Shown here piece after piece: positions 1,475-47,554 of a DNA stretch of 64,000 nt; position 1 is the stretch's first letter; every line of letters starts with the position of its first letter. The stretch is from Thermococcus nautili (GTDB lineage Archaea; Methanobacteriota_B; Thermococci; Thermococcales; Thermococcaceae), in NCBI RefSeq assembly GCF_000585495.1, contig NZ_CP007264.1, forward strand, positions 1,426,001 to 1,490,000, read 5' to 3'. Both the position numbers and the translations under genes were made by a program. Under the pieces are notes generated by a model. It worked only from the letters and a program-made list of their open reading frames with translations. It had not been told where the DNA came from and ran no database searches.

Positions 1475-1650
1475 CTGACCTCCTCCCCGCTCTGGAGGGT
1501 TAATCCCTCACTAATGACGGGGAGGTTTGAGGGGTTTCATTCAAACCCACTAAAAAGTGGGTCTTCGACCCCTCTGGCCGGGTCTTCGGCCAGTTACCCC
1601 TCCTCTGAGCGTACAAACCGCTCAGATTCGGGGTTATGGTCGTCACAACC
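1475..1650 (-). ncRNA. Candidate omega-RNA scaffold at the right end of the TnpB element
   Basis: The 3' end of tnpB and the right end can fold into a chain of hairpins: ACCCC...GGGGT enclosing CTGAGCG/CGCTCAG, then TGGCC/GGCCA with loop GAAGACCC, then ACCCACT/AGTGGGT, then a terminal GC-rich hairpin ending in GGAGGAGGTCAG. In known TnpB systems this region is the RNA guide scaffold, with the guide being the flanking DNA just past the right end. The same fold with compensatory changes occurs in the TnpB-less element at 25492-25860. Transcription and exact ends are inferred. Confidence 0.65.
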
Positions 1651-2810
1651 TTCCTCAAAATGTTGAAAGCTCCAACTAAATCCGCGTTAAAGATAAGCCC
1701 CGTCACGGGACACTTAAACAATCCTCTAACAAAGCGAGCCCCCTCGTGGGGCTTCCCGCAAACGGGGCAAAGCTTAGAAGTGAAAGCCTCATTCACAACT
1801 TCAACAGAGATACCATACTCTTCAGCAACTTCTGTCAAGCGTTTAATGACGTAATTAAACCGCCAAACATGAGAAAGGATAAAATTCTGCCTTTTGCCCT
1901 TATCAGAATTCCGAGCTATTCCCTTTGGATAGCCGACGACAATTCTCTTAACTCCCGACTCGTAGAGCTTCTTAACCGTTTGTCTTACCGCCGTGTTAAT
2001 GTAGTGCTTTGCTTGAAGTTTGGCCTTTTCGTGCATTCTCTTGAGTTTTCTACTCGTTTTGGCTCCACTCTTGTTGAGTTTCGACTGATACTCAGCAATC
2101 TTCTTCCGCCAGTAGAAGTCAATGCTCTTCAAAGGCCTTCCATTCACGAGGAAGCTTTCCCCGTTTTCCACATAAACGGCCATGAGATTGTTCACTCCCA
2201 AGTCAATTCCTGCAGAGAGGTTTCCTCTTGGAGTTCTTGGGAGTTTAATCCACTCCCCACTCTCAAGTTTTTCCTCGACTGCGAGGCTTACGTGAGCATA
2301 CCATCTCCGCTTTACGGGGTCGTAGATGATTTCTAAGCGACCCTGCTTCCCCTTCAGGTGTATTCTACCCTTGAACTGGATTTCGAGACGTTTGAACTTT
2401 CCAAGACCCTTTAGAATGAGCTTATTCCCTTCAATCCTGTATTGGTCGTTTCTGAGAACGATTAATGGTTTCCTCCTCCCGTTTTCTTTGAGGTAGTTTG
2501 GTGGTTTGGGCTTAAGCCAGTTGGGAAGTTCTCCGTTCCGCTTCTTCCGGAGGAGTGAGAAGAAGCTTCTCCAAGCCTCGGCGTTTTTGCGGCATATTTG
2601 TTGAACGGTTGCAGAGCCGATTTCCCGCTTAAACTCATCATAAACGGTTTTCTCAGTCTTGTTAAAGTCCACGATTTGCTCTTTGAAGAATTGTTGTCGT
2701 CTAAGATAGTTTACTTGGTTCCAGACTTTAGCTTCAGTGTCCGCTAACTGGTGGAGGGTTTTCGCCTGCTCTTTTGAGGGCTGGAGTTTAAGCGTTACAG
2801 TTCTCTTCAT
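1500..2810 (-). CDS. tnpB: TnpB, RNA-guided nuclease of IS200/IS605 element
   Basis: 436 residues, normal for TnpB. The split RuvC catalytic residues are all present: D in AGIDLGVNNLMAVYVE (about residue 206), E in VEVVNEAFTSKL (about 344) and D in FNADLVGAFNIL (about 379). The zinc-finger insert begins with CPVC but ends KCPVTG, so the usual fourth Cys is replaced by Thr; the His in CGKPHEG might substitute as a ligand. The N-terminal half is basic, as expected for binding guide RNA. TATA-like CTTTTAAAG lies about 35 bases before ATG 2810. Known family role: guide-RNA-directed DNA cleavage next to a short TAM, which helps the element to persist. No frameshift is seen, so it may be functional. 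Confidence 0.95.
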   Translation of the reverse strand: MKRTVTLKLQPSKEQAKTLHQLADTEAKVWNQVNYLRRQQFFKEQIVDFNKTEKTVYDEFKREIGSATVQQICRKNAEAWRSFFSLLRKKRNGELPNWLKPKPPNYLKENGRRKPLIVLRNDQYRIEGNKLILKGLGKFKRLEIQFKGRIHLKGKQGRLEIIYDPVKRRWYAHVSLAVEEKLESGEWIKLPRTPRGNLSAGIDLGVNNLMAVYVENGESFLVNGRPLKSIDFYWRKKIAEYQSKLNKSGAKTSRKLKRMHEKAKLQAKHYINTAVRQTVKKLYESGVKRIVVGYPKGIARNSDKGKRQNFILSHVWRFNYVIKRLTEVAEEYGISVEVVNEAFTSKLCPVCGKPHEGARFVRGLFKCPVTGLIFNADLVGAFNILRKVVTTITPNLSGLYAQRRGNWPKTRPEGSKTHFLVGLNETPQTSPSLVRD

Positions 2811-2879
2811 TCTAAAGTGTAGTATGAATTTTAGGCTTTAAAAGAGTGTCGCTTTCTCGCTTAAAGACTGTTGGGTTGT

Positions 2880-4184
2880 TTACTGCATCCCCGCCCTAAA
2901 GGACGAGGCATTCAAAAGAATAAAGTAAACCGTCGCCCCGACGCGGAGGTTCGTCAGGACTGCGAGGAGCGCGAAGAGCGCCCTAACTGCGAGGCCCGAA
3001 GGAACGAGCAGGAACAGCATCGTCAGGAAGACCCTCTCGTCTCTCTTCCCGGGGAGCTTTCTGAGGGCGGGAACTTCCCGATATGCGTCCCTGCAGAAGG
3101 CCCCCTTAAAGCGCTCGGTCGAGTAGCTCACCATGACCGAACCGAGCAGAGCTAAGAGCGCGACCAGATACCAGAGGGGCTCTTTCAAAGCTGAGTAAGC
3201 AAGGAGCGCGAGGAAAGAGCCGTCAACGTAGCGGTCGAGGATTGAATCCACGTAGCCACCGAGCCTGCTCGTCCTCAGCTGGGCCCTTGCGAGCTCGCCG
3301 TCAACGCCGTCGAGGATTGAGCTCAGCTGGTAGAGGATTCCAGCTAAAGGCAGGCTGACGAGCGTTAGGAAGGCCGAGAGCACGCCGAGGGCGAAGGTGA
3401 CGACCGTCATCTGGTTTGGAGTGACCTTCTCAACGAGGAGATAGCTGATTCTCGTCGAGATTTTCCTGTTGAGGTGTCGGCTGATGAACCCGTCGCCGGT
3501 CCCCTTGACGGCCGTGAAGATGAGCATCTTTCGGGCCCTCTTGAGCTCCTCCGGCGTGTCCACGTCGGTCCAGCCGAAGCCGTCAACGAAGGTAACCGGA
3601 AGCCCAGCGCGCTCGACAACCTCGCTGAGGGAGTAGTCGCCGTTCCTCTCGTTTTCAAGCTCCTCCGTTACTTTGAAAATCCCTTCATCGAGGACGAGGA
3701 AGCCCGTATCCACGGCATCCCATTCTTTAAGGCCCTTCCCGATTCGCTCGACCCTGCCGTCCTTCACCTTAACCTTCGTCGCCTCGTCAACGTCAATCCA
3801 CCCCGGCCTTCGGTCCGCTATGAGACCGTTTCCCTTTATGGCCTCCGCAACGAAGGCCTCGCTGTAGACGTGGTCGCTCATGACGAGGACGAACCGCTCG
3901 GAGAGGTGGCCCTTGGCGAGGTGGAGTGAGTGACCGTTGCCCTTCTCGGGCTCGGGGTTTATCACGAGCTCGGCGTTGAAGCCGTTCCTCTCAACGAACT
4001 CGCGGTAAAGGGGCGCGTACCGCTCGTTGGTGACGATTAGGAAGCGCTCAACGCCGTTCCTCTGGAGGAGGTGCATCGTTCGGTACAGAATCTCCCTTCC
4101 GGCAACCCTAACGAGGCCCTTTGGCCTTCCGCCCATCCTCGTCCCAAGGCCTGCCGCGAGAATCACTGCCGTTTTTGGAGTCAT
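2880..4184 (-). CDS. Bifunctional inositol-1-phosphate cytidylyltransferase / DIPP synthase (IPCT/DIPPS)
   Basis: Two fused enzymes for DIP, the thermal-stress solute of hyperthermophiles. Residues 1-225 are a nucleotidyltransferase (VILAAGLGTRMGGRPKG near the N-terminus) that makes CDP-inositol; the C-terminal half is a membrane CDP-alcohol phosphatidyltransferase with the signature DGVDGELAR...GGYVDSILDRYVD at about residues 292-321, which condenses CDP-inositol with inositol 1-phosphate. The start at 4184 is preceded by GGTGATG; ATG 4190 and GTG 4193 are alternatives. The last 14 residues (FILLNASSFRAGMQ) and the stop codon are encoded by the left end of the inserted IS605 element, replacing about 12 native residues. 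The catalytic motifs are untouched, so the enzyme probably still works. Confidence 0.94.
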   Translation of the reverse strand: MTPKTAVILAAGLGTRMGGRPKGLVRVAGREILYRTMHLLQRNGVERFLIVTNERYAPLYREFVERNGFNAELVINPEPEKGNGHSLHLAKGHLSERFVLVMSDHVYSEAFVAEAIKGNGLIADRRPGWIDVDEATKVKVKDGRVERIGKGLKEWDAVDTGFLVLDEGIFKVTEELENERNGDYSLSEVVERAGLPVTFVDGFGWTDVDTPEELKRARKMLIFTAVKGTGDGFISRHLNRKISTRISYLLVEKVTPNQMTVVTFALGVLSAFLTLVSLPLAGILYQLSSILDGVDGELARAQLRTSRLGGYVDSILDRYVDGSFLALLAYSALKEPLWYLVALLALLGSVMVSYSTERFKGAFCRDAYREVPALRKLPGKRDERVFLTMLFLLVPSGLAVRALFALLAVLTNLRVGATVYFILLNASSFRAGMQ

Positions 4185-4276
4185 CGGCATCACCTTTTTA
4201 AGGCCCTCAAAGAGGCCCCATCAAGAGAACCAAGATTAAATTAACCGCAGGTAATTTAAAGCTTTCGGTGATGGAA

Positions 4277-25298: not shown

Positions 25299-25491
25299 GT
25301 GTGTCGGTTTGATTATTCCTTTTTATAGTTAACGCTCGGCGGGAAAAACCGATAAATACTCCAATCCCGATGATTTTAGGGTGCAATCAATGGGCTTGAG
25401 CAGAAGGGAGCTGATAAGAAAGCTCTGGCACGTTTCGCCCGGAATCCTTGGGGCACCGATAATACTCTTCACGCCAAGATGGGCACTTTAC

Positions 25492-25860
25492 CACCCCACG
25501 AGCCTTAAAACACCAAAACCTTTTTAAGTCTTGCAAGCGTAATAGAATCTCGGAGAGGCCACCGTAAAACAACCCAAGCTGGATGAGGTGTTTCAAGTTA
25601 CCCTCCAGCATTGGAGGGTTGACGCCGTAAGGCGTCCTTATCAAGAACTGCCCGTTGTGGCAGTTAAAAGCTCTAATGGTGGCCTCCAAGCCATAACCCC
25701 AATCCGGCTTCGCCGGTAGGGGTAACGGGCCGAAGACCCGGCCCGCGGGCTGAACCGAAAGGGGCAACCCGAGTAAGTAATGGGCCCGCAAACCGAACCG
25801 CCCGTTAGCGAGGGGTTAACTCGTTGGAACCCTCGCCCTTCAGGGCGGGGAGGAGGTCAG
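25492..25860 (+). mobile_element. TnpB-less IS605-derived element (MITE-like)
   Basis: 369 bp directly after TTTAC, ending CAGGGCGGGGAGGAGGTCAG, the same right-end sequence and the same target as the TnpB element at 1475-2924. It has no open frame of note. Inside are a TATA-like box and a long chain of perfect hairpins. The left end lacks the GC-rich hairpin seen in the TnpB element, so mobilisation in trans would need a different left-end recognition or the element is now fixed. Confidence 0.8.
25550..25860 (+). ncRNA. Candidate stand-alone omega-like RNA
   Basis: TATA-like CCTTTTTAAG at 25519-25528 predicts a start near 25550. Downstream, GAGGCCACC (25555-25563) pairs with GGTGGCCTC (25679-25687), enclosing CCCTCCA/TGGAGGG, GACGCC/GGCGTC and AACTGCC/GGCAGTT hairpins. 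Next come ACCCC/GGGGT enclosing CCGGC/GCCGG, GGGCC/GGCCC with loop GAAGACCC, GCGGGC/GCCCGC, and a terminal GC hairpin. The part from CCATAACCCC onward matches the right-end scaffold of the TnpB element with paired base changes. Expression and function are inferred. Confidence 0.65.
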
Positions 25861-26387
25861 TCGTCGTCTGGTCGCTGGCTTTCCTCTACACACTTCAGCA
25901 TCTCAAGCTCCTCCGCGGCTGGAAGTTCACCGTTCCAGTAGCGGACCTCAGTTACCGAACGATGGCACGGGAAGACGAGCGCGACAACTTCCTCGGAAGC
26001 TTTCTCTTCTGGGTGACGATGGGGATTATCTGCACGGTCTTTCCAAAGCTCATGGCGCTCTCGGCCCTGTGGGTCTCGACCTTCGGCGACTGCTTCAACG
26101 CCATTGCCGGACAGGCCCTCGGCGGACCGAGGATTCCCTGGAACCCTCGAAAGACCCTAATCGGAAGCGCAACGATGTTCATTGTTTCAGTTCTGGCCCT
26201 CTGGGGTGCACACAGGGTCCTCTCGCTCGACCCGAGCTGGGGCATTATCGCAGGCGTCGCCCTTCTCGCCACTCTACTCGAAAGCCTTCCCCTCCGCTCG
26301 GCCTACGACGAGTTCACGGTTCCCTTCGCAACAGCTCTCCTCCTGTGGCTCGTCTACGGTGGGTCTCTGCTGTCGCCGGTGTGGTGA

Positions 26388-47498: not shown

Positions 47499-47554
47499 GG
47501 CGATGACGAGCCTCACGGTAGCTGAAGAATGATGAGGGGTATACTAACCGAGCC
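47499..47554 (+). ncRNA. Box C/D sRNA 1 of a tandem pair
   Basis: Box C ATGACGA (47503-47509), 12-nt guide, box D' CTGA (47522-47525), 3-nt spacer, box C' ATGATGA (47529-47535), 12-nt guide, box D CCGA (47548-47551), terminal stem GGC/GCC. TATA-like TTTTTTAAG at 47469-47477 is about 25 bases before the predicted 5' end. The D' guide GCCTCACGGTAG can pair over ten bases with UACCGUGAGG, which I recall as part of the universally conserved 23S rRNA segment AGUACCGUGAGGGAAAGG, predicting methylation of the second C of UACC. Confidence 0.87.

Follow-up and report, generated by a model that had tools for sequence, protein, structure and literature searches.

What does a short insertion that encodes no protein do in the genome of the archaeon Thermococcus nautili, when it resembles a TnpB element lying 24 kb away? 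The question arises from a 64,000-nt stretch of DNA (hereafter the window, to which positions refer unless stated otherwise). A sequence-only reading of the window proposed that the insertion is an orphan guide RNA that uses TnpB in trans. We compared the locus with related genomes; the resulting features are collected in Table 1.

Insertion site and host gene

The boundaries of the insert are exact. In a relative, G032, the site is uninterrupted (GGTCACTTTAC/TCGTCGTCTGG), and comparison with it places the 369 nt of positions 25492 to 25860 directly 3′ of TTTAC. As G032 holds the uninterrupted site, the insertion occurred without duplication of the target, as in IS200/IS605 insertions. Most other copies of the element (see below) are likewise preceded by TTTAC or TTAC. 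The gene at this site had been described as interrupted; the part downstream of the insertion, however, is still constrained. Between the T. nautili genome (G000) and G022, two species that have the insertion in common, changes in positions 25861 to 26387 are distributed 10/2/27 by codon position, with pN/pS about 0.15. This coding constraint suggests that the host fragment is presumably translated. No good in-frame start is evident for it: the nearest candidate, a TTG, lies 12 codons within the element, and after it comes an ATG located 34 codons downstream.

Constraint on the downstream part would also be expected of an IStron-like element, self-splicing or processed by an endonuclease in the manner of an intron, that leaves the host message intact, and archaeal omega-RNAs can circularise (PMC12558985). 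Relative to its relatives, however, G000 has lost one base of the host gene just upstream of the element, and exact removal would not restore the frame. On this ground the intron reading was rejected; no Rfam intron family matched either, and we find it scarcely credible.

Family distribution and element ends

BLAST followed by covariance searches revealed a multi-copy family across the Thermococcaceae. A covariance model of the 5′ part (R1) detects 196 copies, spread over 51 of 94 Thermococcaceae genomes; among the 115 genomes of the phylum that were searched, there is no carrier outside this group. Matches of a DNA-pattern scan outside the Thermococcaceae were mostly due to chance and were set aside. 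The sequence-only reading had named a covariance search with no matches beyond the two loci of the window as its refutation; the search had the opposite outcome. By these matches we classify the copies as a large non-autonomous IS200/IS605 family. Like elements of the MITE/PATE type, they have the target and right end of the autonomous copies, no target duplication, no transposase gene and multiple dispersed copies; the left-end hairpin that also marks this type is missing from the window copy and its orthologue. On this comparison the family qualifies as MITE/PATE type, with the window copy as a left-end-deleted member.

The canonical left end, present in most copies, spans about 67 nt with a hairpin (TTTAC/ATTTTTCTTTTGAAAGCCTCGCCCTTTAGGGCGGGGATGCAGTAAAC); tnpB elements and tnpA-tnpB elements (e.g., in G076) have the same left end. 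In the window copy and its G022 orthologue, TTTAC is joined straight to CACCCCAC, a junction that indicates loss of the hairpin. The window copy is probably immobile, since it lacks this hairpin and its genome has no detectable TnpA. In the same genome, a copy at genome position 1928688 keeps the left end, and a third, at 1567885, is also without the hairpin. Left truncation recurs in the family: in L001/L007, L008, L033, L042, L043, L048 and L069, host TTAC or TTTAC is joined exactly to differing internal element positions, as if the loss had begun at a TnpA nick, and L002, L038, L092 and L114 are other left-truncated copies without such an exact join. At the right end, GAGGTCAG is nearly invariant across the family, and the junction between right end and flank is retained in nearly all copies.

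Promoter and RNA structure

Conservation was measured position by position over 55 non-redundant copies, in bits per column. It is high (1.1-2.0 bits) in a block at positions 25514 to 25528 (consensus CGAAACC-CTTTTAAA), with poorly conserved stretches on both sides, which argues that the element carries its own conserved archaeal promoter. The TATA-like box had been placed about 30 bases before the first stem; the conserved box ends about 26 bases 5′ of stem P1, in agreement with this. From the TATA spacing, transcription would be expected to start at about position 25546. That the element encodes no protein was borne out, as there is no conserved open reading frame, indels distinguish the copies, and their covariation is that of an RNA.

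What follows the promoter is a structured RNA sequence of about 315 nt, composed of a family-specific 5′ domain and a tnpB-type omega-RNA scaffold that ends at the right end. Folded as a single sequence, the element has an energy z score of -6.3. In the 55 copies there are 151 double-change cells in the 5′ domain and 105 in the 3′ domain, compared with 62 and 36 in shuffles, and none of 500 shuffles reached the observed covariation in either domain. Kinship of the sequences can inflate the shuffle control; in a slid-partner control, which preserves relatedness, pairing falls from about 90% to 32-52%. Departures from Watson-Crick pairing by a single transition result in G-U more often than in A-C (175 versus 79 in the 3′ domain, 118 versus 89 in the whole 5′ domain, and 73 versus 35 cells in the robust 5′ helices), an excess that fits RNA of the plus strand rather than single-stranded DNA. 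An RNAalifold fold of the whole set, in which a 5′ GGCC pairs with a terminal GGTC, was dropped in favour of the P1 pairing with positions 25678 to 25687 because of double changes at several pairs of the latter.

The G000 and G022 copies differ by 27 substitutions. With pairing defined by the consensus, 8 of these hit the 162 paired positions and 19 the 161 unpaired ones (P 0.025), which modestly supports the view that the RNA structure still mattered once the copy could no longer move. A count based on pairing of the window sequence itself (5 versus 22 substitutions, P 0.002) was biased and was discarded.

The ends match those of autonomous copies, the copies associate with TnpA, and the haloarchaeal PATEs are described as transposase-free relatives (PMC3119063); these points suit a plain TnpA-mobilised miniature element, the interior of which would be a leftover with no function as RNA. 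However, transposition should not require a conserved promoter and covariation over about 300 nt, on which grounds a neutral remnant was rejected, and the structure is respected even after loss of the left end. We therefore regard this explanation as quite improbable.

Scaffold shared with tnpB elements

Model R2 was built only from protein-free copies. In the window it matches the 3′ part of the element with 189 bits (positions 25687 to 25860) and, on the minus strand, the tnpB element with 80 bits (positions 1475 to 1643). In each of the 30 tnpB loci examined, R2 also matches the 3′ end over its full length (E 1e-17 to 1e-41), while R1 gives chance-level matches only in these loci (at most 17.7 bits). 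The presence of R2 in these 30 tnpB 3′ ends together with the absence of R1 indicates that the protein-free element combines an omega-RNA scaffold with a private 5′ domain. Protein-free and tnpB copies diverge in the middle of the scaffold. The sharing of TTTAC, of the right end GCGGGGAGGAGGTCAG and of an RNA fold with the TnpB element was correctly recognised from the window. That element lies at the end of an ORF on the minus strand (2880-4193) resembling sugar-phosphate nucleotidylyltransferase/CDP-alcohol transferase, the stop codon of which is now inside the element's left end.

Table 1 Features of the protein-free element, its host gene and the related TnpB element (window positions)
Feature	Positions	Strand	Basis
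Host gene, 5′ part, 34 codons	25390-25491	+	Comparison with relatives
TTTAC, insertion target site, predicted TAM	25487-25491	+	Empty site TTTAC/TCGTCG in G032
Whole protein-free element, 369 nt, left-end hairpin deleted	25492-25860	+	Empty-site, family and left-end comparisons
BRE-like motif, consensus CGAAAC, here CAAAAC	25514-25519	+	1.2-2.0 bits per column, 55 copies
TATA box, consensus CCTTTTAAA, here CTTTTTAAG	25520-25528	+	1.1-2.0 bits per column, 55 copies
Conserved start region, consensus TAATA-AGGCCTCG	25540-25552	+	Conservation, 55 copies
5′ RNA domain, model R1, about 140 nt	25546-25688	+	R1 match G000:1451546-1451688; covariation; no real match in 30 tnpB loci
Stem P1, 5′ arm, pairs with 25678-25687	25554-25563	+	Covariation, helix 1
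5′-domain hairpin ACCCTCCA/TGGAGGGT	25600-25619	+	Covariation, helix 3
5′-domain hairpin GACGCC/GGCGTC, C-G to U-A in 15 copies	25621-25636	+	Covariation, helix 4
5′-domain hairpin AACTGCC/GGCAGTT, 21 double changes at one pair	25646-25665	+	Covariation, helix 5
Stem P1, 3′ arm	25678-25687	+	Covariation, helix 1
Omega-RNA (reRNA/HgcC-like) scaffold, domain of about 171 nt	25687-25860	+	R2 189 bits; 30/30 tnpB 3′ ends; covariation
Right-end hairpin CCTCGCCCTTCAGGGCGGGG	25831-25850	+	Common to tnpB elements
Right end GCGGGGAGGAGGTCAG	25845-25860	+	Common to TnpB element 1475-2924
Predicted guide TCGTCGTCTGGTCGCTGGCT, host gene	25861-25880	+	reRNA position rule (PMC8612924)
Host gene, 3′ part, under coding constraint	25861-26387	+	G000 versus G022
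tnpB-bearing element, same family, TTTAC at 2925-2929	1475-2924	-	Shared ends
TnpB, 436 aa, intact frame, OrfB_IS605 and Cas12f1-like TNB domains	1500-2810	-	
Omega-RNA region of tnpB element	1475-1643	-	R2 match 80 bits, E 9e-26

Relation to HgcC RNA

No Rfam family matched the element at gathering threshold. A relaxed search gave HgcC (RF00062; 41.8 bits, cut-off 50) and sot0042 (27 bits), both confined to the 3′ half, along with chance matches; the 5′ domain corresponded to no Rfam family. Elsewhere in the window, the C/D box RNA sR51 (51 bits) lies at positions 47499 to 47553 of the plus strand.

We take genome G024 to be T. kodakarensis. Its HgcC and tnpB loci agree with those reported (PMC4247193). 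According to that study, five of the seven HgcC sequences of T. kodakarensis are expressed; three lie in transposase genes, HgcC4 (TK1679) and HgcC5 (TK1820) do not, and HgcC4 has the start site of TK1679. Three of the HgcC-model matches in G024 are at tnpB ends. Another, at genome positions 1474300 to 1474447, is a shortened member of the present family (L033) that has neither promoter nor P1 and lies within the 5′ part of a small gene. A further match, at 1630043, is a hairpin-only fusion of left and right ends next to a membrane metalloprotease gene. L033 fits the expressed HgcC4, and a shortened member thus appears to be transcribed, from a host promoter. HgcC5 is fitted by L198 (about 1541-1591), a minimal fusion of left-end and right-end hairpins next to a metalloprotease gene. 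The T. kodakarensis loci, like the window copy, score below the gathering threshold of RF00062; at that score, the HgcC model misses all but one match in G024, G000, G077, G086, G012, G008 and G009. To judge from these matches, RF00062 seems to model a short portion of tnpB omega-RNA scaffolds, and HgcC, an archaeal RNA listed without function, thereby gains a likely identity as a tnpB-type omega-RNA.

The start site common to HgcC4 and TK1679 (PMC4247193) raises the possibility that the element in the window acts as a leader of its host gene, its promoter driving the downstream coding part and the RNA forming a 5′ untranslated region. The promoter points into the downstream fragment, which has remained constrained since the insertion, but the want of an evident in-frame start speaks against it. 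Moreover, a leader would account for this locus and not for the family, and it is compatible with a guide RNA. We consider it improbable.

Guide position and proposed supply of TnpB in trans

As the sequence-only reading supposed, the host sequence just past the right end occupies the guide position (reRNA position rule, PMC8612924), and empty sites exist in other genomes: G032, G043 and G065 each carry TTTAC and the first 13 guide bases without interruption, and two of them (G032 and G043) also hold TnpB of the family. The same sequence is absent from the element's own genome. The element thus shows several features of an omega-RNA locus, namely, a scaffold fold in common with tnpB 3′ ends, the flank in the guide position, and a target motif plus flank that equals the empty site. 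In addition, ISDra2 TnpB and reRNA expressed from separate plasmids give an active complex (PMC8612924), which makes supply in trans feasible.

Across genomes, copies co-occur with TnpB (46 of the 51 carriers versus 24 of 43 others, P 0.0003, phylogeny ignored), and co-occurrence with TnpA is equally strong, again with phylogeny ignored. Five of the 51 carriers are without TnpB of this family, which indicates that the link between the RNA and this TnpB is not strict; the best copies in these five score lower (P 0.018).

We favour, with moderate confidence, the reading that the locus is a gene for a trans-acting omega-RNA on a non-autonomous IS200/IS605-type element. RNA polymerase would read through the right end into host DNA, and each copy would make an omega-RNA with the flank at its own insertion site as guide. 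TnpB from other copies would bind this RNA in trans and cut TTTAC-plus-flank, that is, element-free alleles, and the break would favour copying the element back in, leading to its retention. The element would exploit the TnpA of its relatives for mobility, where the genome has TnpA, and their TnpB for retention; in the window copy, which is without the left end, the guide function alone could remain. Against this reading, a plain guide model does not account for the 5′ domain, the middle of the scaffold is not the same as in tnpB copies, and HgcC4 is transcribed from a host promoter rather than the element's own.

The 5′ domain, which has no counterpart in 30 tnpB elements yet covaries strongly, could instead be the working part of an RNA that binds TnpB or another protein without guiding it, a decoy or regulator that limits TnpB or stabilises tnpB transcripts; the scaffold in common with tnpB omega-RNAs would suit such binding. 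Retention of the junction between right end and flank is what a guide needs, however, although transposition alone also explains it, and we hold the decoy or regulator to be rather doubtful. A bolder version of the trans-acting guide, which we put forward tentatively as one possibility, sees a dedicated class of mobile guide-RNA genes in which the 5′ domain, far from being a remnant, would work as a module enabling an RNA driven by its own promoter to capture TnpB from elsewhere. The guide RNA of the window would then have outlived mobility and been kept at its locus by selection.

Comparison with known systems and significance

Stand-alone HEARO/IscB omega-RNAs are omega-RNA copies without a nuclease gene; in these systems the RNA lies upstream of the gene, and its sequence is unrelated to the window element. 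The sotRNAs of Halobacterium (RF02656, sot0042) are 3′-end RNAs of IS1341-type tnpB and match here weakly (27 bits); they lie inside tnpB genes, whereas the window element is free-standing. With the omega-RNA/reRNA of ISDra2-type TnpB (PMC8612924) the element shares a 3′-end scaffold extending to the right end, the flank as guide, and a target motif identical to the insertion site. It differs in having no tnpB, its own promoter, and the extra 5′ domain of about 140 nt that the 30 tnpB elements lack. Among the T. kodakarensis RNAs HgcC1-5 (PMC4247193), HgcC1-3 correspond to tnpB 3′ ends and HgcC4 to a shortened member of the family, and the Rfam model spans the 3′ part only. The PATEs of Haloquadratum, in the sections of PMC3119063 considered here, are alike in being protein-free, with near-terminal palindromes like those of IS605-type elements and no target duplication, and one of them, HqIRS71, retains part of the non-coding C-terminal region of the transposase. 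Those sections describe neither a promoter nor a conserved RNA, and the ends and hosts differ. Protein-free IS605 relatives (PATEs; PMC3119063) and HgcC RNAs that are expressed yet unconnected with transposase genes (PMC4247193) have thus been described already; the combination of a free-standing element with its own promoter, a private 5′ RNA domain and a tnpB-type scaffold was not found in the open-licence papers searched.

The 5′ domain adds a structured RNA that is not in Rfam and for which about 200 natural variants are available, and T. kodakarensis provides a genetically tractable host for testing. Should TnpB take up the RNA in trans, parasites of parasites would use the RNA-guided retention of IS200/IS605 elements with an RNA gene alone. 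Such a step, if true, would resemble the split of CRISPR arrays from Cas effectors.
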